A stretch of 64,000 bases of DNA from Turnera subulata (lineage: Eukaryota > Streptophyta > Magnoliopsida > Malpighiales > Passifloraceae). Within the stretch, counting starts at the first letter, position 1, and each line of letters begins with the position of its first letter. The notes beneath the pieces are model-generated. The model ran no database searches, was not told the DNA's origin, and saw only the letters and a list, made by a program, of their open reading frames with translations. Below are positions 3,106 through 42,960 of the stretch, piece after piece. The stretch is from the NCBI GenBank assembly GCA_028386065.3, contig JAKUCV010004254.1, positions 276,971 through 340,970 on the forward strand, given 5' to 3'. The translations under genes and the position numbers were made by a program.

Positions 3106-3112
3106 TATAAAG
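3106..3112 (+). promoter_or_regulatory. TATA box of LTR A (5' copy)
   Basis: TATAAAG lies about 330 bp into the LTR, just ahead of the purine-rich leader, and is conserved at 16747-16753 in the 3' copy. Its position suggests that the LTR transcript starts near 3135-3145. Confidence 0.6.
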
Positions 3113-3117
3113 TAGAG

Positions 3118-4514: not shown

Positions 4515-4687
4515 GTTTGATATCGGGCAGTTCCCCGAGGAACCGGCTTTGGACCGATTGATGTTTTCAGAGTTGAGTAATCGGCTAAGGTGAGGATGGA
4601 TTTCCTTCAATATGTGCCTATATTACTCGGTTGTTGTGTTTGATGATTGTTGCACTGTTGATTGTTGCATTTGCTGTGGTTTGTTTC

Positions 4688-6541: not shown

Positions 6542-7297
6542 GTTCCTGTAACGCCCGAATTTCGTTAATTGATTTTTTCGGAATTTTTCAAAATTTTTGG
6601 AATTTAATTTCCAATTTTACCCTCGAGAAATTCCGGGCGTTTTTGGTCAAGAAAATTGTTGTCATTAATTTATTTCCTTGGAAATATATCTTTTATGTGG
6701 GATAATCCTATAGGTTTCGGAATTAATTTGTGTTTCAAGGAGGAACACGTTGTTTGATGTAGTTTTGCCGATACTACGTCGTTTTAAGAGGCCCAAGGCA
6801 TTAAACACAATTTGGGCTGCGTTTTGACTAAGAAGGGTGGGTTGACCAAGCCAGAGACCAAAACGACGTCGTTTTGGCCTCGGCTGGTCAAACCCTAACC
6901 TCTTTCTCCTTTTCCTTCTTTCTCCCCCTCTTTTCTCTTTGGCCGCCCATCCTTTTCTCTTGGGGTATTTCTCTTTGCTTCCCGACGATTTTCTCTTTTC
7001 CCCACAATCTTTCTCTTCTATCTCCCTTGTCCGTCTCACTCAACCCGCCACCATTAATCATCCCTCTTCTCTCTCAAATCGAGCCGCCGCCGCTGCTGAT
7101 GTTCTCCAAGTCGCCGCCCCGAGCTTTGCTGCCATCACGCACCAGTAGCGAACGAAGGAGGAATCAAGGGGAGACTCGGGTCAAGTTCGTCTTGGGCGTG
7201 GCTGCGACTGGGTCAAGGTCGAGGGAAGGCTCGTGTCGGGCTCGTCTTGGGCGTGGCTGCGACTGGGTCGCACCGCCGCCGCTTGCTGAGCTGTCGG

Positions 7298-8810
7298 GTG
7301 AGTGCTGCGTCACCGTCCTCCTCTTCCTTTTTACTTTTCTTCTTGCTTTTTCCTCTGTTGCCGGGTTATGTTAACTGGATTATGTTTTGTTGTGGTGGTG
7401 GACGGGGAGTGCGATTGTAGTTGGTGGTGTGTGTTTGTGTTCGTCGATAGATGTTGTTGGGTGACGAGTTGGCTGTGTGGTGGTTGGCGGCGGGTCGATC
7501 GTGTTCTGGGTGTGGCAGTGTGTGTGTCGACCGCTGGAACGGGTGGTGACGGTGGCGGCAGTGGTGTTGGTATTTTCCGGGCAGAACTCGGGTTTGTGCT
7601 CTGCAACGGAGTCTGGCCGTTTCATGTCTGGACAGTGGGCAGTGATGACCCACTTGCATTTTGGTAAGGATTCTGACCCTCCTTTCCTTTCCATTTCATG
7701 TCTATTTTCTGTGTGGATTGGTTGCTTGTTGGATTCTGTGTTGGTTAGTTCCCATTTTGAAGAAGTCTTGAATATGCGATTTGCTTATCTCTTGGTCATG
7801 AGTTAATTGTTTAACTATAAAGTATGTGGCCATATAACTTGTCTAAGTTAATTAAACTAAACATAGGATTTAGTCTTGGCATGCACACTATTAGATATTA
7901 GAAACAATAATAGTGGACATTAAAATGAATTTGACTGCAGTGACACTTACTATAATGACAACAGTAATGATTCCACTTATTTACTCTAAGCATGCAACCA
8001 GATACTAATTTTTGTGTTGGCTCGGTTGTTGGTGAATGCTTGTGAAGATGAACTAAGTCAGGTTACCAAATTTACTGGCTTTTAAATAACACATTAACTT
8101 ATGATCGGAAGTTTTCGGGCATAAAGTACTTGCTGGAATTTTAGTTGAGTTTGGTTTTTATGTCGCAATTTGACACTAGAGGGATAATGGAGTAGTGTGG
8201 CTGAAACAATTAATATACAAAGTCGGTAGACCATTGTTCTAAAGTAGTTTCGGGTTTCTGACGAGTTATATTAGACTCTTGTTTTAAACCTTGGTGAATT
8301 AAGATAATAGGGGTTGGTCTATATATACATATTAAACACTGTTGGGTTTGAATCTTTATAAGTATGTACATTTGTAAACGAGGTAGTGACAGCCTTGTGT
8401 TAATACTTGGTTGATGTGGTTAATAGTTTCATATAATATGCACCTGCTTTGACATAATAATTAATTTGATTCTAATGAAGACGTGGATGGTAAACTTGGT
8501 TGGACTTTGGACCAAGATTTAAGATATAGGATTCTGGGTTGTTATGCAAGCCTTCCACTGTTTCGCTTAGCTGTTAGTAGTGTCTTTAGTTTCTCTAAGA
8601 TACAACTTGTACGCTTGGTGATTCATTGAACTTGATTTATTGGTTTCTAAATGGCCTTCAATTTTTCTCCAAGAATTTGGGCTTCAGATCCAAGTTTTAA
8701 AAGGGGAATTTTGTAAAGTGTCGAGATAATTCTTGGACATGGTCGGCATGCATGCATTTCGCATCATAATTGTGTACATTTTATGTGATTCCACCTTGCG
8801 ATAAATATAG
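7298..8810 (+). other. Predicted intron 1 inside LTR B
   Basis: CTGTCGG|GTGAGT at 7298 follows a GC-rich exon-like block. ATAAATATAG|GA gives an acceptor at 8809-8810. A 59-nt block then ends CCCAG|GTGAGGA at about 8870, and TTTTTCAG at 9733-9740 can close a second intron. The 3' LTR keeps the same sites (donor 11843, acceptor 13354-13355). The order matches LTR A, although the two LTRs are otherwise only distantly alike. Confidence 0.45.
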
Positions 8811-9744
8811 GAATGGTATCGTGTCGGGAGGGGAGATGGCTTGTCTTTGGAGATGTTATTACGACCCAGGTGAGGACTTATAAACCTTTGTATGCATTAG
8901 TGCCTGCAATGCTCGGTTAATTGTCTTGGAATATAAAGTGGTGTTATTTGTTTGGTCTTTAAAGCTGTATGCATGCTTGCCTGTTGTGCTGTTGTTGCTA
9001 TTTGCAAAGTGAATTATGTTGATGTTACCTATGACGTGGTGTGCCTGATTATGTGGCCTGTTGTCTGATGTGATGTATTGTGCCTGTCTAGTATGACTTG
9101 TTTGGTTATGATAAACACATGTGATATAGATTTGTGGTTTGTGTGGTGGACTATGGCTGGGGCCCGGATTTGAGATTAAGATGTTAAATCAACACAACGA
9201 TGTTTGACAATAACGTATGGTACAACTCTTAAAGGATAAATGAGAATAACGAATTATAATAAAGTCTACTGTGGAGCTGTTGACCGGTTGGTTCGAGCGG
9301 GAAGTAATACCCCTCGGGATGGCATGCGGGTTTGCATGTGGGCCTGTGATGGCCGGTTCTTCCTCCCTCCTTCTACCTCCCCCTTTCTACCTCCCTCTTT
9401 CTCTCTGTCTCTCTCTCTCTCTCAATGGATATGTTTGGGCTTCGTGCCTGGTTTATTTGGGCTTATGCCTGGTTGTCTCATGAGACGGGACCGAGCTCGA
9501 CGCACACAGTAGAGGGCCCTAATAAAATATTTAATCCTAATAACAAAGATAATAAGATAAGTAATGATAAGTGATAGTTGAAGTCTGGTGATGACTTGTG
9601 TTGTGTATTGTGAATTGTTTGTGCACTATGTTTGCTATTGCCTAATGCCGGTGTACTTGTAGTTGATTTGTATTTGTATATTATTGGTTTATTTGTTTGC
9701 GGTGAGACAGTGGTTGGTCTCACCCCCTCACATTTTTCAGGTTA

Positions 9745-9761
9745 ACTGCTCATTGAGCAGT
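9745..9761 (+). repeat. Perfect 17-nt hairpin near the 3' end of LTR B
   Basis: ACTGCTCA-T-TGAGCAGT has 8-bp arms around one base. It begins four bases after the TTTTTCAG acceptor-like site and recurs unchanged at 14292-14308 in the other LTR. Confidence 0.8.
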
Positions 9762-10072
9762 GGTGCCTATCAGTAGGTGGCGGTGCTTTCCTCTCCTCGG
9801 GTCGGATCCATAGAGTTCACTGCATACATGTTATCATATGTATAGTCTTCCGCTGCATACTCGTTGTTGTGTAATTTGTTGTATAATTGTTCATTGATTA
9901 TGTTGTTGATATTGTATCCCGGGGAGAAGGACATTTTGGTCACTTCACATGCTATACATTCTTTAATGGATGATTTGGGATACGGGTGTCCCAGGAATGA
10001 TAAGGGCAATTTGGTCAATCTATAATTAATTTATAACTTATATTAATAAATTGGGACACGGGCGTTTCAGCT

Positions 10073-11120: not shown

Positions 11121-11121
11121 C

Positions 11122-14100
11122 TGTAACGCCCGAATTTCGTTAATTGATTTTTTCGGAATTTTTCAAAATTTTTGGAATTTAATTTCCAATTTTACCCTCG
11201 AGAAATTCCGGGCGTTTTTGGTCAAGAAAATTGTTGTCATTAATTTATTTCCTTGGAAATATATCTTTTAATTTGTGTTTCAAGGAGGAACACGTTGCTT
11301 GATGTAGTTTTGCCGAAACTACGTTGTTTTAAGAGGCCCAGGGCATTAAACACAATTTGGGCTGCGTTTTGACCAAGAAGGGTGGGTTGACCAAGCCAGA
11401 GACCAAAACGACGTCGTTTTGGCCTCGGCTGGTCAAACCCTAACCTCTTTCTCCTTTTCCTTCTTTCTCCCCCACTTTTCTCTTTGGCCGCCCATCCTTT
11501 TCTCTTGGGGTATTTCTCTTTGCTTCCCGACGATTTTCTCTTTTCCCCACAATCTTTCTCTTGTATCTCCCTTGTCCGTCTCACTCAACCCGCCACCATT
11601 AATCATCCCTCTTCTCTCTCAAATCGAGCCGCCGTCGCTGCTGATGTTCTCCAAGTCGCCGCCCCGAGCTTTGCTGCCATCACGCACCAGCAGCGAAGGA
11701 AGGAGGAATCAAGGGGAGACTCGGGTCAAGTTCGTCTTGGGCGTGGCTGCGACTGGGTCAAGGTCAAGGGAGGGCTCATGTCGGGCTCGTCTTGGGCGTG
11801 GCTACGACTGGGTCGCACCGCCGCCGCTTGCTGAGCTGTCGGGTGAGTGCTGCGTCACCGTCCTCCTCTTCCTTTTTACTTTTCTCCTTGCTTTTTCCTC
11901 TGTTGCCGGGTTATGTTAATTGGATTATGTTTTGTTGTGGTGGTGGACGGGGAGTGCGATTGTAGTTGGTGGTGTGTGTTTGTGTTCGTCGATGGATGTT
12001 GTTGGGTGACGAGTTGGCTGTGTGGTGGTTGGCGGCGGGTCGATCGTGTTCTGGGTGTGGCGGTGTGTGTGCCGACCGCTGGAACGGGTGGTGACGGTGC
12101 CGGCAGTGGTGTTGGTATTTTCCGGGCAGAACTCGGGTTTGTGCTCTGCAACGGAGTCTGGCCGTTTCATGTCTGGACAGTGGGCAGTGATGACCCACTT
12201 GCATTTTGGTAAGGATTCTGACCCTCCTTTCCTTTCCATTTCATGTCTATTTTCTGTGTGGATTGGTTGCTTGTTGGATTCTGTGTTGGTTAGTTCCCAT
12301 TTTGAAGAAGTCTTGAATATGCGATTTGCTTATCTCTTGGTCATGAGTTAATTGTTTAACTATAAAGTATGTGGCCATATAACTTGTCTAAGTTAATTAA
12401 ACTAAACATAGGATTTAGTCTTGGCATGCACACTATTAGATATTGGAAACAATAATAGTGGACATTAAAATGAATTTGACTGCAGTGACACTTACTATAA
12501 TGACAACAGTAATGATTCCACTTATTTACTCTAAGCATGCAACAAGATACTAATTTTTGTGTTGGCTCGGTTGTTGGTGAATGCTTGTGAAGATGAACTA
12601 AGTCAGGTTACCAAATTTACTGGCTTTTAAATAACACATTAACTTATGATCGGAAGTTTTCGGGCATAAAGTACTTGCTGGAATTTTAGTTGAGTTTGGT
12701 TTTTATGTCGCAATTTGACACTAGAGGGATAATGGAGTAGTGTGGCTGAAACAATTAATATACAAAGTCGGTAGACCGTTGTTCTAAAGTAGTTTCGGGT
12801 TTCTGACGAGTTATATTAGACTCTTGTTTTAAACCTTGGTGAATTAAGATAATAGGGGTTGGTCTATATATACATATTAAACACTGCTGGGTTTGAATCT
12901 TTATAAGTATGTACATTTGTAAACGAGGTAATGACAGCCTTGTGTTAATACTTGGTTGATGTGGTTAATAGTTTCATATAATATGCACATGCTTTGACAT
13001 AATAATTAATTTGATTCTAATGAAGACGTGGATGGTAAACTTGGTTGGACTTTGGACCAAGATTTAAGATATAGGATTTTGGGTTGTTATGCAAGCCTTC
13101 CACTGTTTCGCTTAGCTGTTAGTAGTGTCTTTAGTTTCTCTAAGATACGACTTGTACGCTTGGTGATTCATTGAACTTGATTTATTGGTTTCTAAATGGC
13201 CTTCAATTTTTCTCCAAGAATTTGGGCTTCAGATCCAAGTTTTAAAAGGGGAATTTTGTAACGTGTCGAGATAATTCTTGGACATGGTCGGCATGCATGC
13301 ATTTCGCATCATAATTGTGTACATTTTATGTGATCCCACCTTGCGATAAATATAGGAATGGTATCGTGTCGGGAGGGGAGATGGCTTGTCTTTGGAGATG
13401 TTATTACGACCCAGGTGAGGACTTATAAACCTTTGTATGCATTACTGCCTACAATGCTCGGTTAATTGTCTTGGAATATAAAGTGGTGTTATTTGTTTGG
13501 TCTTTAATGCTGTATGCATGCTTGCCTGTTGTGCTGTTGTTGCTATTTGCAAAATGAATTATGTTGATGTTACCTATGACGTGGTGTGCCTGATTACGTG
13601 GCCTGTTGTCTGATGTGATGTATTGTGCCTGTCTAGTATGACTTGTTTGGTTATGATAAACACATGTGATATAGATTTGTGGTTTGTGTGATGGACTATG
13701 GGCTGGGGCCCGGATTTGAGATTAAGATGTTAAATCCACACAATGATGTTTGACAATAACGTATGGTACAACTCTTAAAGGATAAATGAGAATAACGAAT
13801 TATAATAAAGTCTACTGTGGAGCTGTTGACCGGTTGGTTCGAGCGGGAAGTAATACCCCTCGGGATGGCATGCGGGTTTGCATGTGGGCCTGTGATGGCC
13901 AGTTCTACCTCCCTCCTTCTACCTCCCCCTTTCTACCTCCCTCTTTCTCTCTGTCTCTCTCTCTCTCTATGGATATGTTTGGGCTTCGTGCCTGGTTTAT
14001 TTGGGCTTATGCCTGGTTGTCTCATGAGACGGGACCGAGCTCGACGCACACAGTAGAGGGCCCTAATAAAATATTTAAACCTAATAACAAAGATAATAAG

Positions 14101-14616
14101 ATAAGTAATGATAAGTGATAGTTGAAGTCTGGTGATGACTTGTGTTGTGTATTGTGAATTGTTTGTGCACTATGTTTGCTATTGCCTAATGCCGGTGTAC
14201 TTGTAGTTGATTTGTATTTGTATATTATTGGTTTATTTGTTTGCGGTGAGACAGTGGTTGGTCACACCCCCTCACAGTCTTTTTCAGGTTAACTGCTCAT
14301 TGAGCAGTGGTGCCTATCAGTAGGTGGCGGTGCTTTCCTCTCCTCGGGTCGGATCCATAGAGTTCACTGCATACATGTTATCATATGTATAGTCTTCCGC
14401 TGCATACTCGTTGTTGTGTAATTTGTTGTATAATTGTTCATTGATTATGTTGTTGATATTGTATCCTGGGGAGAAGGGCATTTTGGTCATTTCACATCCT
14501 ATACATTCTTTAATGGATGATTTGGGATACGGGTGTCCCAAGAATGATAAGGGCAATTTGGTCAATCTATAATTAATTTATAACTTATATTAATAAATTG
14601 GGACACGGCCGTTTCA
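11122..14616 (+). repeat. LTR B, 3' copy
   Basis: Same layout as 6547-10069, ending at target duplication copy 2 (gttcc, 14617-14621). It carries the repeated splice-like sites, the CT-rich run (about 13905-13967) and the 17-nt hairpin. Confidence 0.95.
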
Positions 14617-14713
14617 GTTCCTCTGGACGTTCGTTGATCATGCTGTAGGCCAGCCGGTTTCTTCTGCCTAGGTTGGCACCTTCGATGAAGAAGACGGATG
14701 ATGGAGCAGGCAT
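14617..14713 (-). CDS. Antisense ORF 1 of element A, 5' part
   Basis: The ATG at 14713-14711 begins MPAPSSVFFIEGANLGRRN. Thirty-two codons and one base later, the frame reaches element B. With B and one gttcc removed, the next codon (CTA) completes and leads into PNELGKMPRLVF at 6541. This shows that B broke a pre-existing open frame. Confidence 0.5.
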
Positions 14714-16234: not shown

Positions 16235-16418
16235 GGCTGTGTGTGAGTTTGCCAGTCAAGAGGTTCGGTTCTTATAGAGGAAGAGATGTCGCTTAAGAGC
16301 ATAAGCGGTATCTCATGTTGAGTTTGGAAACCTGGCAGAGTGTGCCAGAAGCTTATCGTGGTAGGACCCACGAATAAGACGAAATTTCGAGGACGAAATT
16401 TTTTTATGGTAGGTAGAC

Positions 16419-17493
16419 TGTAACAGCCCGGGTAAAAATTTATATTTTTTACCGGGACTGTAAAAATCTTTTACCGTGATTTACCGAATGAATTAATCTT
16501 GGGTAATTAATTCAAGGTAAATAGGGCGTCGTTTTTCGAAACCGAGTCATTTCCCGCGCTCGAGATTTTTCCGTGGATTTTTTGGACCAAAGTTGGTATT
16601 TCTCGGGTCCCGGAATCCTCAGAAAAGCCACACCGGAAATAACTAAGGGGGTATGTAGTTATTTTCTGGTCCGGATCGGACTCGCTCCACAATGCAGACA
16701 AGCTGCATTATTGAAGGCGGCACCAAACTTCACAGTGTTTCTCCATTATAAAGCAGAGGAAGGAAACCAGGGAAGAGAAGGAGGAGAAGAAGAAAAAAAG
16801 GAGGGAAAAAAAAGAGAGAAAGAGAGAAGAAAAAAAGAGAGAAGGAAAAAAAAGAGGGAAAAAAAAAGAAAGAAAAAAAACCCAGCAAAATAGTAAAAAA
16901 AACAGAGAGATGAGAGGAAAAGAAAAATAAAAAAAATGAAATCAGAAAAAGAAAAGAAATAAAGGAAAAACTGAAAAAAATTGGAAAAAAATAGGAAAAA
17001 AAAAGAGGGAGAGGATGAACAGTTGGCCATCTTCTCAACACTGTTCACCAGGACGCGTTCCACGGCGCCTCGAGCTCCACCGCCACCAGCCTCGCCTTCG
17101 TCGTGCCATCGCTTTGCATCCGCCGCTTTCACCCGCCGGACGCGCCGTCCAGAGGCGTTGACCCGTCGTGCATCCCTCGGGTCTTCTTCCCCGCGCTCCT
17201 GCTCAGCCGCTGCGACGCCTCGCGCCGCCTTTCCACCGCCCTTGAAGTTTCCTCGAGCTCGCCTTCCTTCCCTTCGCATCAGTCGCGTCGCCGCTGTCAT
17301 CAAGGTGAGCAACCTGTTTTCACGGGCGGGTCGTGCCTGGTTTGGTTGGGTTGGCCAGCCGGGTTTGGGTTTCCCTTTAAAAACAAAGAAAAAAAATATA
17401 TATATACCTATTATTTTGCTGGTATTAATTTCTGGGAAAAAATATATACTTATATTCTAAAAAATATGGTAAGTTTTAATTATAGTTTTGGAG

Positions 17494-17547
<54 letters not shown>

Positions 17548-19346
17548 TTTGATAACTATATTTTGTTTTGAAAAATTACTATTATGTTATTTGGAAAGAA
17601 AGATATATATCTTGAATATATTTCTAGAGTATTCTATAAATATGTTGTTCTTGGAAAAGTATATATAGGTATATATCTGAAATATATATAATTACTTTGA
17701 TATATAATTGTTTGGAAAAGTATTTTACCTTTGGAAAATATATATGTAAATTTATAAATTCATATTTATTTCCAGAAAATAAGTTTGTACGATTATTTTT
17801 TCTGGAAAATGAGTTTTTTATAGATAATAATATTTAGTAAATATATTTTGGAAAGTATAATATTTTATGGAAACTTCTTGGAAAATTAAGAATATATATA
17901 TATTAATTTCTAGGAATTACATTGTTAATATTTTGAAAAAAAGTATATTATTTTATGAAAATATTTTGATTAAATAGTTTGGTTATATATTTTTGTAACG
18001 ATATATACAAACGATATATTATTTTTTAGAAAAAGGTTTAAATATGATAAAAGGATAATTTTATGATAATATAATAGAGATGTTTTACCGGGAAGTTTTA
18101 TTTACAGTATTGGCATCATACCATACCGATTATGTGCATCTTATGTGAGCATATGTGTTTTGTTATATAGGTTTGATATCGGGCAGTTCCCCGAGGAACC
18201 GGCTTTGGACCGGTTGATGTTCTCAGAGTTGAGTAATCGGCTAAGGTGAGGATGGATTTCCTTCAATATGTGCCTATATTACTCGGTTGTTGTGTTTGAT
18301 GATTGTTGCACTGTTGATTGCTGCATTTGCTGTGGTTTGTTTCGGGATGTTTATCCCAGTATCTTGATTGGTTTTGGGATGTTTATCCCCATGATTTGAT
18401 TTTGGGATGTTTATCCCCGTGCATTGAGTTTTGGATGTTTATTTCCGTGTCTTTTGGTATAAGGATAATGAGTTAAATAATAAAATGTGATTAGGATGTC
18501 GATCCTTGGTTTTTGATAGGGATGTCTATCCCGGTGTTTTGGTTAGGGATGTTGATCCCTGAGATTTGGTTTTGGATGTTGATAATATAATTGTCACGTG
18601 GTAAGTAGTGGTACGACTTGATGGTTTAAGACTGTTTTGTGGTGGCCATGACCTGGGTTACTTGTGATAAGCATGTCTATGCTTGGGATGTCTATCCCGT
18701 GATTATATTGGGGATGTCTATCCCTGGGTTACTATTTTGGGATGTCGATCCCTGGGCTCTCTTGGTTTGGTCTGGCACTCGAAATATGTTGAGAACCAGG
18801 TCTGACCCCTAGCTTATTCGTGACGGGGCCCAGAAAGATAAAATTGGAAATTGGATTTTTGTTAAGTCTTTTTGGTCTTGGACCAGTTTTGGGTCGAGTC
18901 TTTTGGTTTGGTGTATTTTGGCTGTTATGCCTGTTTCCGACCTTGAGTAATTTATAGTGTTGCATATTGATTGTCTATCCTTCGTCGGTGAGCACTTCGG
19001 ACTCACCCCTCACATACAGGCTTTCATCCCGTAGGTTGAGTTATTTGTGGTTCAGGTATGATGCATTCCGGACAGGCTGCGGTGTTATCCCTCTGACAGG
19101 ACTCGGATCCATTAGTTTGCATCAGTGTCGCATACAGTGTCTTTGTGAGTTATTAAGTCTTCCGCTGTGCTATTTATTGCTATTGTTGGGCCTTTGGGCC
19201 GGTTGTGATGTTATTGATGTTTATATTTTGGGCTGTTGAGCCAGAGCTACTGATGTATACACTGTATGCTGGGCTTTGTTTGGTTGGGTCGTTACAGTTC
19301 CGGCACATGTTTACTGTGTATGGTAAATACCGGCTGGGGCTTTTCA
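16419..19346 (+). repeat. LTR A, 3' copy
   Basis: Begins TGTAACAGCCCGGG and ends CTTTTCA, followed by target duplication gtaga. Compared with the 5' copy it has a longer (AT)n microsatellite at about 17496-17546. Its palindrome array is at 18344-18752, the TATA box at 16747-16753, and the predicted intron at 17305-18170. Confidence 0.93.
18344..18752 (+). repeat. Palindrome array in LTR A (3' copy)
   Basis: The GGGAT-gtnn-ATCCC units of the 5' LTR recur, including the compensated AAGCAT/ATGCTT unit. One unit reads taggatgtcgatcctt here instead of aaggatgtcgatcctt, losing only its outermost pair. Confidence 0.85.
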
Positions 19347-23225: not shown

Positions 23226-24189
23226 TAGGATGAGAAGAAGCCCTCTTTGTAAGTGATTTGTAAGTGAACAAGATCTGTTAAGTCTACGAACAAATCTTGC
23301 TGTTCTCTTTTCCTTGTTGTAACTGTTTATTTGGACATTGATCACTAGTATTGAGTGAAGACAATTTTTGACTAATTTTTTACTCAATCGTCTTTTCCAT
23401 AAGGCATTTTAAGTTTCAACCGATCGACACAACCATATATATATTGTTCTCTCCAACGTGCACGCGGTTTTCTACCTTCTGTGTTCTCATGGTCTCAGCG
23501 GCCTTATGCATCTTAGACTTTCTGCTGTTGTAATTGTTTTTTTAAATATGTATGGTCAGACTCTATGGTCTTGATTTTCTAACCATGTATATATTGGTTC
23601 TACAGGAATAATAATAAGTATAATCCCTTTAGCATAAAAAAAAAAAATCTTCTCCATTATCAGACGCCAAAGCGAACAACCTAGGAATGAATGATTTGAG
23701 GGCCATACCTATCAGCCCAAGGATCATCCTGGAACTTGTATTTGTAGCTATGAAAAATGCTTCACAACATGAACGCCCGAATAACGTAAATGCTAGTGCC
23801 ATATATAGGTGGAAGGAAACATGAACAAGAACCAACGCAACATGAGAACAGGTCATTGCAAAAACTGGAACATGAACTGAGTATAGTAAATCAGAGTCAT
23901 GCAACGTATCATGATAGGGTGGCTGAAGCAGACCGGTCACAGAAAAACCATTAGAATCAAATGAAATAGTACACGGCAAAACAATTGATGGAAGTAAAGT
24001 TTATAGTCAATGAAAGAACAACTAAAACATCAACATATAAGAAAAAAAACCCTGATGTAAATATATTACTATATATATACTACTGAACTTTTTAAATCCT
24101 TTTTTACGGTTAACTTTTTGGCCAATTAAAAAACCGTATGGATTTAATTGCAACAATACAAAATTTTCAAACAAGTACCACAATTTCCC
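23226..24189. other. Intergenic region with paralogous flank
   Basis: No gene is seen. About 23840-24010 matches 36648-36812 (gaacaggtcattgcaaaaac and following), and 24040-24240 resembles 38180-38360 upstream of F-box gene 2. This is shared flanking sequence of a duplicated F-box locus. Confidence 0.6.
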
Positions 24190-24525
24190 GAGTAGCGATC
24201 GATGACCCATAATCCCTCCACCCTACCTATTTGTCAAACCCTAGAAATAGAAAGAAACTCATGTTCTCTTCTGCGGCACTATAATTAAACAAACCTCAGA
24301 AAGAAACCCTAGAAAGTATAGAAACCTCCGCCAACAACCACTTGGTTGTGATGACATTTCCCTTAACCTTAGGGCTTGGTGGGTTGAGGTCCCGGGTTCA
24401 AACCGTGGACAGCGCGTTGTGTGGTGGGATTTAGGATGAGTTTAGTGGGGTTTGGGTAGATCGTTGTATATATAAAAAAAAAGTATAGAAACCTCCACCA
24501 TGGCTCCAAGCAATGCAAGACAGTG
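24190..24525 (+). pseudogene. Promoter and first codons of a lost F-box paralog
   Basis: The sequence follows the promoter and leader of the two intact F-box genes and reaches a start codon at about 24500 encoding MAPSNARQ, then a stop. The rest of the gene is replaced by LINE sequence. A SINE splits the leader 20 bp before the ATG. Clearly non-functional. Confidence 0.75.
24330..24480 (+). mobile_element. tRNA-derived SINE
   Basis: A 151-bp insert flanked by the 16-bp direct repeat aagtatagaaacctcc (24314-24329 and 24481-24496). It contains a B-box-like GGTTCAAACC within gtcccgggttcaaaccgtgg, a plausible A-box upstream (ttggttgtgatgacat), and an A-rich tail at its end. Length, pol III boxes, tail and target repeat together define a plant SINE. 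Confidence 0.88.
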
Positions 24526-24526
24526 A

Positions 24527-24807
24527 GATTACACAGTAGGGTTGAGAATTTTCCCTTTTCTTATCTTGGCTAAGGGAAGTTCTTATGATTAGGAGGCAGG
24601 GTCAAACTTATCAAATCTGTTCTCAATGGATTGCCTTTATATTTTATGTCCTTATTTAAGCTCCCTGTCGCAATATCTAAGAAGCTCGTATCTATCACCC
24701 GAAATTTCTTTGGGGCAGATGGAACGAGAAAGACATGCTTTGTTGCTTGGAACAAGAACTCTATTACTAAAGACAGGGATGGCATGGGCATTATTGACCT
24801 TAATATT
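24527..24807 (+). mobile_element. LINE H, RT C-terminal part (piece 1)
   Basis: The plus frame gives LPLYFMSLFKLPVAISKKLV and DGMGIIDLNI, standard for the region after the RT catalytic core of plant LINEs. The piece is 5'-truncated. It is cut by element D after the Ile codon and resumes at 32579. Confidence 0.8.
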
Positions 24808-26354
24808 TGTGAGAACCCGACCCAAAATCACTTGGGCCTCCTCACCTATTCCTTTCACCCTTTTCCAAGGGTCAATCCCATATCACTGGTGTCGCCATCC
24901 AAGTTTTATTAAGGGCAAAATTTAGGAAAAACCTTCATATGACTCCTTAGGCAACCGGTCGTGGCGAACCAAAGACATGGGATCGGGGGTTCGTCACGGA
25001 TGGGAAGGTGTTAGGCACCCATCCGTGTTGGGTCGAAATCTTGTGCAATCAAAGAGCATAAATGTGACGTGTGTGCGTGTGCAAGTGTGGAAAACAAAGA
25101 AAGGGGGGAGAAAAGACTTGGCTTGCATCCTGTTGTAAAACCGAGACTACCTACATACCCGAGTGATCGGGGTCAAAGCCACGTAGTTCTAAACGTGGCA
25201 CACAGTGGCCACTTACATCAACAAAAGCATCAGCAATCAATCACCAAGAATTTTAGTAAAAGGATTTAGGGTTACCTTATGTAGCCCTCCTCTAGCTCCT
25301 TACAATGGGTCGAGTTCTACACCCACCTTCATGCCACTCCTTAGCTCTATGGTTGATCCTCTTCTTGATTCCTCCTTGCTAGACTACTGCTTGATGCTCC
25401 CCACGGAAATCCTCCAGAGTTTCTGCCTTAGAAAATATTTCTAAGCTTGGAGAAGTAGAGTCTCTCGAAGCAAGAAAAGCTTATGGGTGTGTATGTGAGA
25501 AAGACTGTGTGTCCATTAAAATGTGTGTGAGGGGTTCTATTTATAGTGCTCTGGGAAGCCTAGGGGCGTGGACCTGCTTAATGGTGAAGATTGTGCCCGA
25601 AAATCTGGTCTAAAACCGCGTAGGATCGAAAAAGAAACAAAATCGGAGATTTTCGGAGATCCTGGGCACCCATGACCGCCGTGGCCGGCGGTCATGGCCA
25701 CAAGACCGCAGGACTTGGTGGGCATCCCATGATGACCGTCGGGCCCTCCCGGTTTTGTGCGTTCTTTCCTTTTTTGCTCCTCAATCCCCTTAATTCAGCT
25801 CTGATTCGATCCTACCGCGTAATAAACTCCTAATCTACCCAGAATCACTCAATTACTTGATTAGCACTCCCCCAAATCATTCCATAATCAAAAAATTGCA
25901 TATTAACACCCAAAATCATGCCAAAAAACACAAAATTTACTTAAATGATAATTAACTCTGGTTTTCCCCAAAAATTAGAGCTAAAATTGATCTGCAAGAA
26001 ATGTGTTAATGGGCTGGACAAACTCTGGAGAATAATTAATTTGGACCCTTAAATCCATTCCTAACCCAAGAATAAATCATCTCTTTATTATTGGATAAGA
26101 AACAAATAAAAGGCCCAAGTAATGTATTTTAATGCAAATAAACCTTATTATACATTTTATCCTAAGGTCAAATCATCTCATTAACCCTAGGATTAAACAC
26201 GTGAAGGTTAAATTATCAAAATACATCAATTCCACTAAGTTAAATTCTTATCATGCTTGAACCTTGGACTGAATCATCTCATTAATCCTAAGTCTACACA
26301 TGTTTGAAATCTAATTTTAGTGAAATATTCATGGGTCAAATTTGGGTATTCATA
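24808..26354 (-). repeat. LTR D, 3' copy in element sense
   Basis: Aligns along its length with 31046-32578, with many transition differences, so this element is older than A or B. The end at 26354 reads ttcata where the other copy reads ttcaca. Confidence 0.85.
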
Positions 26355-26475
26355 GATGCCCCTCGTTGATGAGTCCTTAGAGACTAGGGATGAAACAACG
26401 TAAGAACGGAACAACCAATTTTGAATGGTCTAATGTTTGTGTTGCGTGCCACGGGTTGGAGCATCCCATGCTCCG

Positions 26476-26654
26476 CTTCGGGAATCATCTCATCCCGAAG
26501 GTTTGAGGGACTGGCCCTCAGTTTATGGGAATCATCTCTTCCCAGGTTTGTGGTTTTTGGGAATCATCTCATCCCTAGGTGATAGAACCATCTCATCTAT
26601 CAGGTTGTTGGCAAAGAATCATCCCATCTTTGTCAATTGGATACTCAACAATTG
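26476..26654 (-). repeat. Array of seven covarying stem-loops in element D
   Basis: Seven consecutive inverted repeats. Arms and positions: cttcggga/tcccgaag (26476-26500), tgaggg/ccctca (26504-26520), tgggaa/ttccca (26526-26544), ggga/tccc (26559-26575), tgataga/tctatca (26580-26602), caaaga/tctttg (26612-26632), caattg/caattg (26634-26654). Arm sequences differ at nearly every unit but always pair, while the middle is nearly constant (atcatctca, accatctca, atcatccca). In the element's own sense the middle reads TGAGATGAT. The array lies at the polypurine-tract end of the element. Confidence 0.85.
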
Positions 26655-26833
26655 GGATTTATCTCTTTGGGGAAACTCTCTTGAAAATCTATCACCCTTA
26701 CCCTAGAGGGATTTTTTCTAATGCACTATCGGCACGGTACCCTAAGTGGGGTTTAGTTACGTATTCTCACTGCAACCAGGGTGCTTCGCTTCCACAGCAT
26801 CGTTTGTCTTTCTTAGAGGGACATAGTTAAAGA

Positions 26834-27004
26834 GACTAAAAGAGGTATCAAGAGATCTTATCCATGAAGATATAGCCAAGCGACTAAAGGGGGATCAAGA
26901 GATCTTATCCATGAGGATATAGCCAAGCGACTAAAAGGGGGATCAAGAGATCTTATCCGTAAGGATATGGCCAAGTGACCAAAGGAGGATCAAGAGATCT
27001 TGAG
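26834..27004. repeat. Three-copy tandem repeat, about 60 bp unit
   Basis: The unit contains ggatcaagagatcttatcc, followed by ataaggatatagccaagcga-like sequence. It occurs three times with changes, then a partial fourth copy. Within each unit tatcc and ggata form another small inverted repeat. Confidence 0.8.
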
Positions 27005-27139
27005 ATTGGAGGCTTAACATGCCCCTTTATCCATAGCTGGAAGTCTACTCTATTTCTCAAGCTCACTAGTCCATAATCAACACAGGTTCGGGTATCGTGC
27101 CCCTAGTATCATTTCACGAAAGGGTTTGGCCTTACAACT

Positions 27140-27390
27140 CGTTTTATAGTGAATGCCCAAACTCGTTAACAAAAGTTAGGGCTTACATCTCCTTGAATGC
27201 CCAAGCTCACATCTCGACTCTTCAACAAAAGTTGGGGCTTACATCTCCTCGAATGCCCAAGCTCACATCTCGACTCATCAACAAAAAATTAGGGCTTACA
27301 TCTCCTCGAATGCCGAAGACAACAAGCATCAAATTAAAAAACTTGGGCCTTATATCTTCTCAAGAATGCCCAACATCAATTAAAAACTGG
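27140..27390. repeat. Tandem repeat with gggcttacatctcctcgaat units
   Basis: About four units of roughly 55-60 bp containing cttacatctcctcgaatgcc and caacaaaagtt. The units diverge toward 27390. Non-coding internal sequence of element D. Confidence 0.75.
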
Positions 27391-27399
27391 GTGTCGCTG

Positions 27400-29656
27400 T
27401 GCCCCTAGGGTCTGCGGGTGATCATAATGTCTACATCTCGAGTGTGGGCATGGCATGCCCGTTATTCTACAGGTAAAGTCATCTAAAGATTCGGGCATGC
27501 CATGTCCGTCCAGTCATCAACCCTAGGAAATATAAGTCTATATCAAGTGATGAATTTAAGATGTTGTCACTTTCATTGATCATTTATTCTCAACCAAGTC
27601 TACCTTCTCAAGGAATCCATGTTCTACATGTAAATGATGCATGTGCATGTCTAAATGTGTCATCTTTTCAATGCATGGGGATGCCCCTAGTTTCTATATG
27701 TGAGTGCCATGATGTGTTTGCGGTGTGTCAATGCTTCTAATTTCTGCATGCTTGTTTTTGGATGCAAGTACCCCCTCATGATTGCAATGATGTGTTTGCC
27801 CCTCGAATCCAAGTGCTCTCTACTCCTACGTGGATGTATGTGCCTATGACTTATCTTTTCCCTTTTGTCTCCCCTTTTCCTTGATTCTTTTCTTTTCATC
27901 TCCCCTTTCCCTTTAAATGCAAGTGCTCCCTACTTCTATATGATATTTTGTTCTTTTTTTTTTTTGAAATGTAAGAGCTATCTACTTCCATATGTATGAA
28001 TGCGGGTGCGATCTTATTCCTACATGGTGCATTTGGAGGCATGTGCCCCTAGATGCGAGTGCTTTCTACTTCTACGTGTCGTGTTTGGATGTAAATGTCC
28101 TTAATATGATGCATGAGCTTTGAAAATCATTTGAGCCGTAGGTGAGGGTTAAGAAACTTGAAAAAATGTGAGTTATCCAATCTAAAATCACAAAGGCTTC
28201 ACGTGAAAGACTCCCAATGGCCATGAATATGTGTTTCTTTTTTTTTTAACAAGTGCCCCATGAGTGGGCAAAACCAGTAGTAATAAGATGCTTCAAATCG
28301 AAGGTTTTGAAAATCTTCACCAAATCACCGTCTAAAGGGAACTTAGATCAAGACACCCAATCGAGGACTCTTAAGAGTTCATAAAAAAATATTTTAGAAT
28401 TAGAACCCGAACAAAGAAAGATCCCACATGCAATAATGATTCGACGTCATGAAATTTTCAAAAAGAAATCCTATAGGCAAATCGCAGGTCTAAACTCCAC
28501 TATTATGTATAGATACTCTCAAAAGGATCAATAGGTCTTTCATTGAGGATGCTAATGGGCTCATGTGTAGAGGTTCATCAAAGAGATGATAGTGAGGGAT
28601 TCAAAGTTCAAAATCACATCTAAGAAGGGTGAGCTTCTACCGAGAAAACCAAAGTATTCTCAAAGTGCACTTTTTGATTGACATCCAATCTTGAGTTGAT
28701 CGTCTTTCTTTCTTCAAAGTGATTGCTTATGCACACATTCGTTCCTCTTTTGTCTTTGTTTGGATTGTTCGAAATCAACTTCGGGAGCTTTGACGATTTC
28801 TCCTTCGAAATTCCTCCTTGTGTGCACCTTGGCATTTTATACCACACTTGAAAATTCTTTTTGCTTCAAAACAATTTTACTTGTGCACACATTTTCTCTT
28901 TTCTTCTATCGTTGGTGATTTGAATCTGGTGATTTCTCCTTGTGTGCACTTCGGCATTTCATACTATTCTTGAAGCAATTCGTTGCATGGACCGTCTTGG
29001 ATGTGTAGAAATTGATGTGCACTTGTCTTTGAAAAATTCTTTGGTAAAAGATCGTAATGAGATCTTCCCAACGGATTTTGAAACGGGTATGATTCATGAA
29101 ATAAAAATATACGATAGCCAAAGAGGGGACTCCAAGGGTTAATGGTGAGTTAATCGAGGTAATCAAAGAAAAATTGGCTATCACGTTATAGGCTCAAAGA
29201 GGGTTTATCGAGGGATAATGCTACTGGGTAGGTTTCTTGTTGGCCTGCGGGCTTGAGCAAAGAGGGCCTAAATCATATCCTTTATCGAGCATCCATATGA
29301 GAAATTCGCTTTAAAAAGACCTAGCAATTTGTTCTAGGATGCAGATGTTGACGTCAAGATTTTTCAAAAGACTTGCATAGGGTGTTCAGAAAAACAAACG
29401 TCGGGTTAAAAAGTTTAAAACTCCAAGAATTAATCATTGGTCATCCATCAATAAAATTCTCTTAATCACGGCAATTGGTGGATCAGTTTTTCACTCATGG
29501 TGTCCTGCAGGTCTGATTTTCAATCAATTCAGTTCATGGCCGTCAAGAGTCTTAGACTTAGGCTTTGTTTAACTTCAAAAGCGATTGGTGGAAAACAGGA
29601 TGGAATATACTCGCAAAACATGTTCCTTTTCTTTGAAAACAATCTCTTTTATTAAG
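27400..29656. other. Non-coding internal region of element D
   Basis: No gag or pol domain is seen on either strand. It includes a palindrome, gggcatggcatgccc (27446-27460), with a near-copy at 27493, and loosely repeated phrases such as aagtgctccctacttctat through 27700-28080. Otherwise I see nothing recognisable. Confidence 0.5.
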
Positions 29657-29671
29657 AAAACTCAAGTTTCA

Positions 29672-30343
29672 CCCCAGGGTCACTTGGTTTAAACTGTTAT
29701 GGTCAGCTTGCTTTATACCAAAACACAGTTTCATTTCATGGCTTGCCATCTTAGATAAGCTGACAACTCGTGTTAGGCTACGAAATTGGGGTGTCGTTAC
29801 TGATGCAACTTGCCTCCTTTGTTCACAGCATGATGAATCTCGCAATCATCTATTTTTTGAATGCTCATATTCTGCTGAAGTTTGGTCCTCACTTCTGTCC
29901 CTTTGTAACATTTCTCGGCCTGTGCAATCCTGGCAATTTGAGTTCACTTGGGCGCAGCAATTTCTTCAGAAGAAATCCATGAAGGCATTGATATTGAGGC
30001 TTTCTTGGTGTGCCTGCATCTACCATTTGTGGCATGAACGGAACACCAGATACTTCTGCCATTGTTCCAGACCGCCTACTGCTGTTGCAGCTGCTGTTCG
30101 TGCTAATTTGCGGCTCAGATTTTGTGGCTTAACTCTTCTCAAATCTCGCCCATTGTCTCTAGAAGTACATCAGTTATGTGGCTTTTGGGTATAAAATTTT
30201 GTGATTCTGTACTTAGCTGAACTATCTAGTTTTCTTTAGTGGTAGCTTAGTAGCTATACTCTCGCTGTAATGTGACTTTATGTCCATATTGTTAGGGTAA
30301 TCCCTAACCCAGTTTTGGAATACAACAAGATTTGATTCTTAAA
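29672..30343 (+). mobile_element. 5'-truncated LINE inside element D
   Basis: The plus frame encodes a reverse-transcriptase zinc-binding region: CLLCSQHDESRNHLFFECSY (about 29815), YHLWHERNTRYF (about 30030) and a stop after CGFWV at about 30193. A 3' UTR and A-rich end follow. The 15-bp repeat aaaactcaagtttca flanks it (29657-29671 and 30344-30358), defining the insertion exactly. Confidence 0.9.
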
Positions 30344-30358
30344 AAAACTCAAGTTTCA

Positions 30359-31026
30359 ACAAAGACGATACACATTGGCTCGATTTGTTTGATTTGAAAA
30401 ACATGTGATGCAGTGTTCAATGTATGCAAATGGGAATTCCCTAAGAGAAGGTAGACCGGCTGAAGATATATGTCAACTAAGAAACAACTCCAGAAATCTA
30501 ACATCGGTTTAAACATGTATACTTACTCCCCTAGGGCTCCTTTCCTAGACTTGTTAATTCACACCACGTGATCTAGCATCCCACGTAGAGTTAGCACGGC
30601 AATCCCACTAATTATACATATCACACAATAAATAAAAACACTCTTTTTACACATACACGAATCCACAACAATATTCACACAAAATACACGTATCACTTAT
30701 TGATTCATCATGCATGAGAAGCTCAGGGTATGCAGCTAGTTGGGGGCCAAGAGACTGCTGCTAGGGAATAGGTTGACCTACTCACAAGTGATAATGGATA
30801 TTGCGTGAGGTCCGAGGCCAGTTAATTCCCATTATTGCTAAGCATCGAGAAACGGGTTCATGCAAGCCACCATCATTTAAAGAAAGTATGTGGTGGACTT
30901 GGCTTCCCTCGCCCTCTTATGATAAAGGCTTCACATAAATCATCATGAATGCAGGGCACTTATGATGACAAGTAAAAAGGCACACAAAGATCTATGATTG
31001 TACAAGATTTCTTAAACCCACTACTT
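30359..31026. other. Non-coding region of element D near its primer site
   Basis: No coding potential is recognised. In the element's sense this is the leader after the 5' LTR. Confidence 0.5.
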
Positions 31027-31045
31027 CCACAGCGGAGTCGCCAAC
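31027..31045 (-). other. Primer-binding site of element D
   Basis: On the minus strand, directly after the LTR, the sequence is GTTGGCGACTCCGCTGTGG. TGGCGACTCC is the tRNA-Arg-type primer site reported for Ogre/Tat-like elements, as I recall it. Confidence 0.55.
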
Positions 31046-32578
31046 TGTGAGAACCCGACCTAAAATCACTTGGGCCTCCTCACCTATTCCTTTCACCTTC
31101 TTCCTCGGGTCAATCCCATATCACTGGAGTCGCCACCCAAGTTTTATTAAGGGCAAAACTTGGGAAAAACCTTCGTATGACTCCTTAGGCAACCAGTCAT
31201 GGCGAACCAAAGACATGAGATCAGGGGTTCGTCATGGATGGGAAGGTGTTAGGCACCCATCCGTGTTGGGTCGTAATCTTGTGCAATCAAAGAGCATAAA
31301 TGTGTCTTGTGTGCATGTGCAAGTATGGAAAACAAAGAAAGGGGGGAGAAAAGACTTGGCTTGCATCCCATTGTAAAACCGAGACTACCTACATACCCGA
31401 GTGATCGGGGTCAAAGCCACATAGTTCTAAACATGGCACACAGTGGCCACTTACATCATCAAAAGCATCAACAATCAATCACCAAGAATCAATCAAAAAG
31501 GAATTAGGAATACCTTATCTAGCCCTGCTCTAGCTCCTTGCAATGGGTCAAGTTCTACACCCACCTTCTTGCCACTCCTTAGCTCTATGGTTGATCCTCT
31601 TCTTGATTCCTCCTTGCTAGACTACTGCTTGATGCTCCCCACAAAAATCCTACAGAGTTTCTGCCTTAGAAAATATTTCTAAGCTTGGAGAAGTAGAGTC
31701 TCTCGAAGTAAGAAAAGCTTATGGGTGTGTATGTGAGAAAGAATGTGTGTCCATTAAAATGTGTGTGAGGGGTTCTATTTATAGTGCTTTGGGAAGCCTA
31801 GGGGCGTGAACCTGCTTATTGGTGAAGATTATGCCCGAAAATCTGGTCCAAAACCGCGTAGGATCGAAAAAGAAACAAAATTGGAGATTTTCGAAGATTT
31901 TGGGCACCCATGACCGCCATGGCCACAAGACCGCCAGGACTTGGCGGGCATCCCGTGATGACCCGGGCCCTCCCGATTTTGTGCATTCTTTCCTTTTTTG
32001 CTCCTCAATCCCCCTAATTCAGTTGTGATTCGATCCTACCGCGTAATCAACCCCTAATCTACCCAGAATCACTCAATTACTTGATTAGAACTCCCCCAAA
32101 TCATTCCATAATCAAAAGATTGCACACTAACACCCAAAATCATACCAAAAAACACATAATCTACTTAAATGATAATTAACTCTGATTTTCCACGAAAATC
32201 AGAGCAAAAATTGATCTGCAAGAAATGTGTTAATGGGCTGGACAAACTCTGGAGAATAATTAATTTGGACCCTTAAATCCATTCCTAACCCAAGAATAAA
32301 TCATCTCATTATTGTTGGATAAGAAACAAATAAAAGGCCCAAGTAATGTATTTTAATGCAAATAAACCTTATTATACATTCTATCCTAAGGTTAAATCAT
32401 CTCATTAATCCTAGGATTAAACACATGAAGGTTAAATTATCAAAATACATCAATTCCACTAAGTTAAATTCTCATCACGCTTGAACCTTAGACTAAATCA
32501 TCTCATTAATCCTAAATCTACACATGTTTGAAATCTAATTTTAGTGAAATATTCATGGGTCAAATTTGGGTGTTCACA
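31046..32578 (-). repeat. LTR D, 5' copy in element sense
   Basis: Counterpart of 24808-26354. It ends at the LINE H junction (32579), after which the LINE frame continues. Confidence 0.85.
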
Positions 32579-33413
32579 GTGTTATGATCCAGTGTCTTCT
32601 ATTTAAGTGGTTCTGGAATTTTTGTGCGCATGTTGATAGTGCATGGAAGGGGCTAATAATGAGTAAATATGATGTACAACCACCCTTGCTATCTCCAGTT
32701 TTTGCACTACAAAGGTGTTCTTCTACTTGGCGTGATATTGTGTCCTCTATTTCTTCTAGTAGTCAATCAGGTGTCCCTCTGCTTCAAGGCTCACTCATTC
32801 GGATAGGGTCGCTCACTCATTCGGATAGGGTCAGAATCAATGGTTCGATTTTGGCTAGATGATTGGTCCGACCGTGGGTCTTTGAAAGGATTATTTCCCT
32901 GCTTATTCTCCCTATCAACATGCCAGAACTCATCCATGAGGGAGTGTCTCGTTCCCAGCGAAAAGAGCTCCAGATGGGATGTGTCATGGAGACGAACCCT
33001 ATACAGATGGGAGTTGCTGGATGTGGCAGAAATACAGAGTTTACTAGATGATGTGCTTTTTTTTTTCTGCGAACATGGATTCAAGAAGCTCAAATGACAG
33101 TCCAAATAGAATATACTGTTCCAAGCTAGGAAGGGCATTCATTTACTCACAACTGGGTCCTTTACGATCTAAGCCCTATGTGTGGTTCTCCTTGTCTCCA
33201 TTTAAGACAGAGTGTTGGTTGTGGTTAGCTCTGAACAATGGGATTCCAACCAAAGAGGCATTCAGGCAAAGGGGCATTGTCTCCCTCGCTGATTGAATCT
33301 GTAGTTTATGTGGTTCCAGCTTTGAGACCAGGGATCAGTTGCTACTCTCTTGCCCTTTCTCTTGGCAAGTGTGGTGTAAACTATGCAGATGGTGGGGTGT
33401 TTTATGGTGTATG
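32579..33413 (+). mobile_element. LINE H, piece 2
   Basis: After element D the LINE continues with MIQCLLFKWFWNFCAH, then FWLDDWSDRGSL and, in a shifted frame, WLWLALNNGIPTKEAF followed by CSLCGSSFETRDQLLLSCPF, the zinc-binding C-terminal domain. Several frameshifts and stops show decay. A near-duplicate of gggtcgctcactcattcgga at about 32785-32830 is a small tandem duplication. It breaks at 33413 and resumes at 35974. Confidence 0.8.
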
Positions 33414-42120: not shown

Positions 42121-42279
42121 GGAATAGCTCCAATTGAAGGAATAATCTTATTCCATCATCAAACTGACTTTGCTATCTATTTTGGAAATCCCTATCCGTG
42201 GATTTTCTTTTGAATTCATACCACCCTTTGCCCAGAACCTTTCTTCAAATTCGAACTCTTCGTTCTTTTTTACTTTTCT
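42121..42279. other. Probable plastid-derived spacer
   Basis: AT-rich, without a gene; continues the rpl2/clpP segment by position. Confidence 0.35.
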
Positions 42280-42960
42280 TGATATAGCCTTATATCTCCT
42301 TTTCTCTAGTGATATAGTTTATAGCTTCTTTTTCTCTAGTGATATAGCCTTATAGCTTCCTTTTCTTGATATAGCCTTATAGCTAGCTTCTTTTTTTAGT
42401 GATATAGCCTTATAGCTAGCTTCTTTTTTTAGTGACATTGCTTGTAGCTTCTTTTTCTTGATATAGCCTTCTAGCTAGCTTCTTTTTCTCTAGTGATATA
42501 GATTATAGCTTCTTTTTCTTGATATAGCCTTATAGCTAGTTTTTTTTTATTGATATGGTCTTATAGCTAGCTTCTTTTTCTCTAGTAATATACCCCCTCC
42601 GTCCCACTCAAGCTGGCGTCTTAGGTTTGGGCACAATAATTAAGGAAATTATTAGCTTTGATTTAATCTAGATAAAGTTTGCTCAAATTGTCTAATTTGC
42701 CCTTATAAAAGATGAGAGAGAATGACAAAAGAGAGAATAGATGTGGAAAGATAGCATTAAAATTTATCTTGAATTCAATAAAGAATAGTTAAAATTATCT
42801 AGAACTTATAAAATGCCAGCTTGAGTGGGACAAATTTTTTTCCTAATACGGCAGCTTCAGTGGGACGGAGGGAGTAGCTTATAGCTTCTTTTTCTTGACA
42901 TAGCCTTATAGCTAGCTTCTTTTTCTCTAGTGATATAGCTTATAGCTTCTTTTGCTCTAA
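42280..42960. repeat. Minisatellite, gatatagccttatagctagcttctttttct-like
   Basis: About a dozen imperfect copies of a 30-40 bp unit built on tgatatagccttatagct and agcttctttttctctag, at 42285-42592 and continuing after the inserted MITE at 42880-42955. Confidence 0.85.
42593..42874. mobile_element. Stowaway-like MITE
   Basis: 282 bp with terminal inverted repeats of the CTCCCTCCGTCCCACT type: left ccccctccgtcccactcaag, right agtgggacggaggg. It is flanked by TA on both sides (42591-42592 and 42875-42876), the Tc1/mariner signature. Inner arms (agctggc.../...gccagctt) also pair. Confidence 0.92.

Follow-up and report, generated by a model that had tools for sequence, protein, structure and literature searches.

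A tandem array of same-loop hairpins ahead of the 3' LTR of a Turnera subulata retrotransposon, a candidate signal in its RNA

Introduction

Plant LTR retrotransposons of the Tat lineage reportedly carry hypervariable tandem repeats in their 3' untranslated regions (UTRs), an observation attributed to Macas 2009. According to the parts of the papers drawn on here, such repeats characterize the Tat-lineage Ogre and Retand elements (PMC7004042, PMC11963269) and occur in non-autonomous elements as well (PMC7004042), and in a 2025 survey of Retand elements the tandem arrays ahead of the 3' LTR are said to be of unknown origin and function (PMC11963269). These arrays are short, tandem, located in the interval between coding region and 3' LTR, family-specific and variable in copy number, and in all of these respects they resemble the array described below, which belongs to a retrotransposon that we call element D. 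They are not described as hairpins in the same sources, where the text drawn on lacks the word "hairpin" in both PMC7004042 and PMC11963269 and the word "stem" in the latter. In element D, by contrast, the main units all form hairpins around a constant loop, the stems covary, and the loop recurs in U3.

A second comparison is offered by the RM boxes of Sireviruses, which are Ty1/copia elements. As described in the portions of PMC2829016 used here, 12 of the 13 listed motifs have the core CGG-CCG, each element has one consensus, and a function is suspected. The layout is shared with element D: at least eight copies with dyad symmetry, placed in the LTR upstream of the TATA box and in the linker before the 3' LTR (PMC2829016, same portions). 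In the Sirevirus motifs, however, the symmetric core is constant and the intervening bases are few, whereas element D keeps an asymmetric 9-nt loop constant and its stems differ within the element. Element D has three U3 copies upstream of a TATA-like box and the array before its 3' LTR, and in place of a CGG-CCG palindromic core it has ATCATCTCA, in the loop.

RNA hairpins in which a protein reads a fixed loop on a free stem include iron-responsive elements, Smaug sites, phage coat protein operators and retroviral packaging stem-loops. Like the array of element D, they combine a fixed loop with a free but paired stem, often in several copies; their loops were compared with ours through Rfam. 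Hairpins generated by template switching share perfect short stems with paired changes, but those in the consulted parts of PMC8794818 are described in microRNA and rRNA genes, whereas element D represents a repeated family of many members in which the loop is constant and constraint is indicated. A literature search, mostly at the level of titles and abstracts and covering few subscription journals, did not turn up any account of plant LTR elements with same-loop hairpin arrays.

The Hairpin Array in the Window

The window analyzed here is a stretch of Turnera subulata DNA of 64,000 nucleotides (64 kb). On the minus strand, about 120 bp ahead of the 3' LTR of element D, positions 26458-26654 form seven perfect, non-overlapping hairpins with stems of at least 6 bp, plus one 4-bp hairpin. 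The original prediction had listed seven inverted repeats set end to end. All seven were found at 26476-26654, separated by spacers of 1-14 nt, and a further hairpin without the constant loop lies at 26458-26474. The predicted near-constant loop, ATCATCTCA with at most one change (TGAGATGAT in the sense of the element), is present in five of the seven repeats, and so in five of the eight array hairpins, always in the same orientation; the repeats at 26504-26520 and 26634-26654 have other loops.

All units are assigned to the minus strand. Hairpin u0 (26458-26474) pairs GGAGCAT with ATGCTCC around a 3-nt loop. It is followed by u1 (class 1; 26476-26500), with stem CTTCGGGA/TCCCGAAG and loop ATCATCTCA, by u2 (26504-26520), with stem TGAGGG/CCCTCA and the differing loop ACTGG, and by u3 (class 3; 26526-26544), with stem TGGGA/TCCCA and loop ATCATCTCT or, alternatively, a 6-bp stem and a 7-nt loop. 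The weakest hairpin is u4 (class b; 26559-26575; stem GGGA/TCCC, loop ATCATCTCA), whose stem has 4 bp in the window copy and 3, 4 or 6 bp among eight relatives. Next come u5 (class c; 26580-26602; stem TGATAGA/TCTATCA, loop ACCATCTCA) and u6 (class d; 26612-26632; stem CAAAGA/TCTTTG, loop ATCATCCCA), the stem of the latter extending across 26608-26636 with one G.T, and finally u7 (26634-26654), with stem CAATTG/CAATTG and the differing loop GATACTCAA. The array-type loop is also found in three weaker U3 hairpins of each LTR, at 26076, 26172 and 26273 and at 32300, 32396 and 32497. In the 3' LTR these are L1 (26066-26094; weak, loop ATCATCTCT), L2 (26160-26192; imperfect 12-bp stem, loop ATCATCTCA) and L3 (26261-26293; imperfect stem, loop ATCATCTCA); their counterparts in the other LTR lie within 32292-32513 (32292-32316, 32388-32412 and 32489-32513).

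The seven perfect stems of at least 6 bp in 26458-26654 comprise 46 pairs, while 5000 dinucleotide shuffles of the same segment gave 0.56 hairpins on average and never more than 4, with 3.6 pairs on average and at most 26. Measured as paired bases per 200 bp, the array is the top spot of the 64-kb window (92; next, 86). As predicted, the stems differ between units and still pair: in the seven units of 26476-26654, 40 of 42 positions pair with their own partner, a value that only the true assignment reaches among 5040 permutations. For the five array units and three U3 units together, the corresponding figure is 1 to 3 of 40320, varying with LTR copy and arm length. Across these eight units 82.8% of cells are paired, against 50.0% after shuffling and at most 59.4% with slid partners, and 23 cells are changed on both sides, against a shuffled mean of 7.6 (0/500); a weaker measure, the number of pairs with two-sided change, gives 7 versus 5.0 (37/500). 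Loop identity averages 90%, whereas at positions 7-14, counted from the loop, identity is no higher than chance (26-27%).

A covariance model built from the eight units had ten matches in the window with E<1e-4, all on the minus strand of element D, the next best having an E of 0.074. These ten are seven of the training units and three counterparts in the other LTR; the eighth training unit, u5, is absent, perhaps because of a one-base overlap with its neighbor. The fold z-scores of the window array are modest (-2.6 sense, -1.6 antisense). A scan of 24000-33000 against Rfam 15 (E up to 1) matched no family to the array and gave only a sub-threshold U6atac at 24740-24855. Hammerhead-like letters near 26370 (GATGAG...GAAAC) had no Rfam match and were dropped.

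Anatomy and Lineage of Element D

Element D has two direct repeats with TG...CA-type ends, as in an LTR retrotransposon: the 3' LTR (24808-26354, minus strand) and its partner, the 5' LTR (31046-32578, minus strand), are 93% identical. On the plus strand both start with TGTGA, and they end with TCACA (right) and TCATA (left). The flanking 5-mers, checked as a possible target site duplication, are not identical (ATATT and GTGTT). A motif at 25537-25546 on the sense (minus) strand, CTATAAATAG, is what we take to be a TATA-like box, and U3 of the 3' LTR runs from 26354 down to about this box. The short purine-rich tract GAGGGGCATC (26355-26364, minus strand) borders the 3' LTR and is assigned from its position, which bears out the predicted location of the array near a polypurine tract. 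The primer binding site TGGCGACTCCGCTGTGG (31027-31043, minus strand) is presumably complementary to the 3' end of tRNA-Arg. Its TGG begins 2 nt past the 5' LTR, within the 0-5 bp expected of LTR elements according to the parts of PMC6317226 drawn on here, which also relate primer use to lineage. Since the primer site follows the right-hand LTR, the purine tract precedes the left-hand LTR and the TATA-like box is on the same strand, element D reads on the minus strand.

Little coding capacity was detected. The Pfam scan of three of the nine minus-strand pieces (at least 55 aa) of the internal region returned zero matches and no pol piece, and a LINE fragment (zf-RVT) lies within the element at 29637-30194. 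A relative, L138 (contig C5984), is 95% identical over the genome query 26400-26750, and its primer site (L138:3844-3861) differs by one base. It has weak minus-strand gag matches between primer site and array, below the Pfam cut-offs (PF03732, 19.0 bits; cut-off 24.1), and the distance from its primer site to its array, about 4.5 kb, leaves little room for a full pol. The window copy of element D is probably dead and non-autonomous.

Judged by sequence features, element D probably belongs to the Tat group of Ty3/gypsy, given the criteria in the consulted parts of PMC6317226 and PMC7004042; the presumed primer type, tRNA-Arg being one of the primers other than tRNA-Met, would fit, and the tandem arrays ahead of the 3' LTR (47-bp, 56-bp and the hairpin array) fit as well. 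The first two lie upstream of the hairpin array at 26830-27001 (47 bp) and 27161-27318 (56 bp), and their units contain small inverted repeats (TATCC..GGATA, GGGC..GCCC).

The window contains other repeats. The LTRs of a further element, element A (2773-5689 and 16412-19346), likewise bear an array of short hairpins (4680-5105 and 18339-18756), whose loop, GTYK, is nearly constant; the left copy has ten stems of at least 5 bp in 426 bp (maximum 6 in 2000 shuffles). Its stems are mostly GGGAT/ATCCC, with some AAGGAT/ATCCTT and AAGCAT/ATGCTT, and resemble Sirevirus-type palindromic boxes; in the own-partner test they gave a weak result (2505 and 3873 of 200000 permutations). A younger LTR pair (6546-10070 and 11121-14617; 97.6% identical) is nested in the older element A (92%), and the inverted repeat AAATTTCG..CGAAATTT lies directly ahead of the right LTR in both. 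Elsewhere, a degenerate array of TATAGC-rich repeats, each about 31 bp long, occupies 42274-42592 and resumes 300 bp later at 42875-42959, and the short stretch that splits this array has terminal inverted CTCCGTCCCACTCAAGCTGGC-like ends and resembles an inserted small DNA transposon.

Copies Across the Host Genome

In the 518.7-Mb host assembly, the query 26400-26750 matched at 40 loci, which are those scored among 1049 candidates; the other 39 loci were all retrieved. Arrays of this kind are far more numerous: a genome-wide search for three exact loops spaced 12-42 nt apart had 2437 overlapping matches (1142+1295), while the reversed control had 0+0. For covariation, a sample was chosen by the loops alone and comprises 31 of 32 distinct loci among the matches listed, the thirty-second being the already retrieved L113.

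The 40 copies have 5-21 hairpins of the named classes (median 10). Nearly all arrays follow one plan, with classes 1-3-b-c-d, then a repeated cassette a-b-c-d, then a final unit; the cassette measures about 124 bp and occurs in up to three or four repeats, with some losses and substitutions of classes. The arrays thus grow mostly by tandem duplication of four-hairpin cassettes, and the stem classes are copied along. The argument that simple tandem duplication would keep stems identical was therefore half right. Tandem arrays with a second pair other than G-C were found by the genome pattern search in 3 places, versus 1 in the control, so nearly all of the genome's tandem arrays keep the G-A/T-C closing pairs. 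In U3 hairpin L3 the second pair is A-T in 18 of the 40 copies and G-C in 16.

At the loop-selected loci, U3 and the purine-tract side are kept in 29 of 31 (70-93% and 76-92% identity) and the upstream side, 26660-27100, is matched in one of 31. The array therefore stays beside the purine tract while its upstream neighbor differs.

Public collections were also searched. An LTR 19-mer and a primer-site pattern of element D each had 0 matches in the viral_contigs collection, and the plasmid collection held no match to the element. The 17-mer GGGAATCATCTCATCCC occurs in one IMG/VR contig (L001) that has no further likeness to element D, and we take this match as chance. A two-core pattern was found at 10 viral and 78 prokaryote loci; on 89 public loci in all, model R1 gave 27 matches (E up to 0.5, best 25 bits), of which L001 and L021 were read, and these matches are taken as chance or unrelated repeats. 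One of the contigs, from Bacteroidia (L021; L034 is from the same assembly), has a tandem repeat, near-exact and unrelated, in which ATGAGATGATT occurs, and the contig is weakly matched by the model (17.5 bits).

Paired Changes Between Stems

The pairing of differing stems holds in the genomic copies too. Among 343 array units from the 31 loop-selected loci, 5.93 of 8 positions pair with their own partner, compared with 3.93 (sd 0.076) for random partners, and 142 of the units have perfect 6-bp stems of 13 distinct kinds. Homologous stems in this sample differ by paired switches, for example CAAAGA/TCTTTG to CAAGGA/TCCTTG, and at pair -3 of the class-d hairpin the 38 homologous units comprise 18 with G-C (9 loci), 17 with A-T (12 loci) and 3 without a pair. 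Pairs -4 to -8 of the GGGA-type hairpins covary (0/2000 permutations each). Two pairs go in the opposite direction: pair -7 of class c is paired in 26 units where independence predicts 33.5, and pair -9 of class d in 11 where it predicts 16.9. Paired positions covary in counts that include, and are inflated by, the kinship of the copies, so that these counts show paired variation and not a number of events. In a further test within stem classes, pairs varied mostly independently in the dead copies, and the covarying ones numbered 0 of 13 (d), 1 of 13 (c) and 4 of 13 (GGGA-type), with permutation counts of 0 or 1 in 2000.

RNA or DNA as the Acting Molecule

Several properties bear on which molecule the hairpins would serve. 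In minimum-energy folds of 11 copies picked from the 40, sense RNA retains 71 of the 94 array hairpins and antisense RNA 44. In eight copies, sense recovery falls from 41 of 55 hairpins to 35.0 with shuffled spacers and 32.5 with uniform spacers, and antisense recovery rises from 27 to 32.0 and 38.25, respectively. The spacers are 71% A+C in the sense orientation (50-83% by locus), compared with 47% and 62% in the flanks. Together, the spacer bias and the predicted folds favor a sense RNA in which hairpins would be set on unstructured linkers.

These spacer properties tell against a rather unlikely reading in which the units are palindromic DNA boxes, either sites of plant DNA-binding proteins or cruciforms, with an enhancer role to which RNA folding would be irrelevant. 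This reading would fit the placement of units in U3 upstream of the TATA-like box and ahead of the 3' LTR, as for the Sirevirus motifs in the parts of PMC2829016 used here, and the LTR of element A likewise has palindromic boxes. It also gains from the common wobble-type mismatches of the array (u0 -7, u1 -5, u2 -6, u4 -5, u5 -7, u6 -7), which are G.T on the plus strand and A.C, hence no wobbles, in sense RNA; those of U3 are mostly sense G.U. A palindromic protein site, however, would be built in reverse, since here the constant part is the asymmetric 9-nt loop and it is the symmetric part that varies, the outer stems being at chance identity between units. Moreover, the boxes closest to the promoter would be the U3 hairpins, and older changes are not significantly depleted in these in the 40-copy comparison described below.

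Older and Newer Changes

Constraint was examined on a tree of the 40 copies built from U3 and flank sequence, with 11 gappy columns dropped and u0 and u2 counted as hairpins. The counts of substitutions on internal versus terminal branches were 6/96 for inner stems, 5/57 for loops, 34/96 for spacers, 20/90 for the flank and 10/40 for the outermost stem pairs, the last showing no depletion of internal-branch changes. Inner stems differ from spacers (p=4e-5) and from the flank (p=0.007), and loops from spacers (p=0.004) and, less clearly, from the flank (p=0.08). Allele sharing outside CpG-type sites (at least 4 copies versus singletons) gave 2/37 for stems, 16/20 for spacers and 6/21 for loops, in agreement with the tree for stems, the loop result being weak (p=0.11 here; 0.05 with at least 3 copies, to 0.12). 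Changes per site on terminal branches amount to 2.67 in spacers, 1.33 in inner stems and 1.08 in loops, so the contrast may partly stem from alignment or local rate. The smaller number of internal-branch changes in inner stems and loops than in spacers favors selection on the hairpins, and it suggests that selection maintained them during the active life of the element.

What the tree shows about pairing itself is more limited. Of 136 terminal stem changes, 106 break a pair and 10 (five pairs) are two-sided with the pair kept; the 16 internal-branch stem changes include 10 that break a pair, 5 one-sided restorations and 1 that does neither. Two-sided compensation accounts for 0 of these 16, and the within-family signal is therefore one of stem and loop conservation, the paired changes belonging to older splits between classes and subfamilies. 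The original prediction of selection on base pairing thus draws support from the depletion in inner stems and loops relative to spacers and none from two-sided internal changes. It had also named uncompensated stem mutations as evidence against itself; these are present in form, but one-sided mutations in dead copies are expected from decay after insertion, and the active lineage is outside the reach of that test.

The pattern could instead have arisen by mutation without function, with a core-seeded hairpin copied in tandem and its arms recopied by template switching of a polymerase or reverse transcriptase, so that stems change yet pair. We consider this unlikely, although template switching might have produced the stems. 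Template switching is reported to make and maintain hairpins (PMC8794818), and the 3' UTR tandem repeats of Ogre/Tat elements are hypothesized as products of replication (PMC7004042), in the parts of both papers drawn on here. Cassette duplication is evident in our arrays, one-sided intermediates are scarce at class-d pair -3 (3/38), and the five two-sided paired changes on terminal branches are of the expected kind. A mutational origin does not readily explain, however, why internal-branch substitutions are lacking in loops and inner stems but not in adjacent spacers, nor why a constant loop sits beside randomized outer stems. Template switching between strands can, furthermore, invert loops (PMC8794818, same parts), whereas the array side of the 40 copies has 1 inverted and 458 forward cores.

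A Candidate Signal in the 3' Untranslated Region

That the hairpins feed host small-RNA pathways, as miRNA-like or siRNA precursors, or serve as decoys, is very improbable. A correlation of small RNAs with local secondary structure has been reported for maize transposable elements (PMC10760457, in the part used here), but stems of 4-12 bp are far below the length of known plant Dicer substrates, and it is the loop that is conserved.

On sequence grounds, and with about even confidence, we prefer to read the array as a structural signal that acts in cis from the 3' UTR of the genomic RNA, where the hairpins would probably serve as a repeated signal. The main unit would be a short stem presenting a constant 9-nt loop, UGAGAUGAU in the sense orientation, closed by an A-U pair and then, within the array, usually by a G-C pair, and the stems would be interchangeable so long as they are paired. 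The loop might be read in its helix context by a protein, perhaps an RNA-binding protein of the host, perhaps the Gag supplied by an autonomous partner. Many copies would provide avidity, and tandem duplication of four-hairpin cassettes yields the 5-21 units. Such a signal could potentially serve packaging, export, stability or reverse transcription. For Ty3, RNA localization and packaging rely on UTR or POL sequences according to the parts of PMC4974528 drawn on, which provides a distant precedent for a 3' signal. As a speculative and improbable extension, the array might be a modular RNA recognition device, a fixed loop on swappable stems multiplied as cassettes, by which a non-autonomous element would outcompete or recruit the Gag of its autonomous partner, with array length tuning packaging.

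In this family, one tandem array ahead of a 3' LTR resolves into same-loop hairpins with covarying stems, present in very many copies in one genome. This makes the function of such an array testable, and it provides a natural alignment that is big enough for covariation statistics on a candidate RNA signal.
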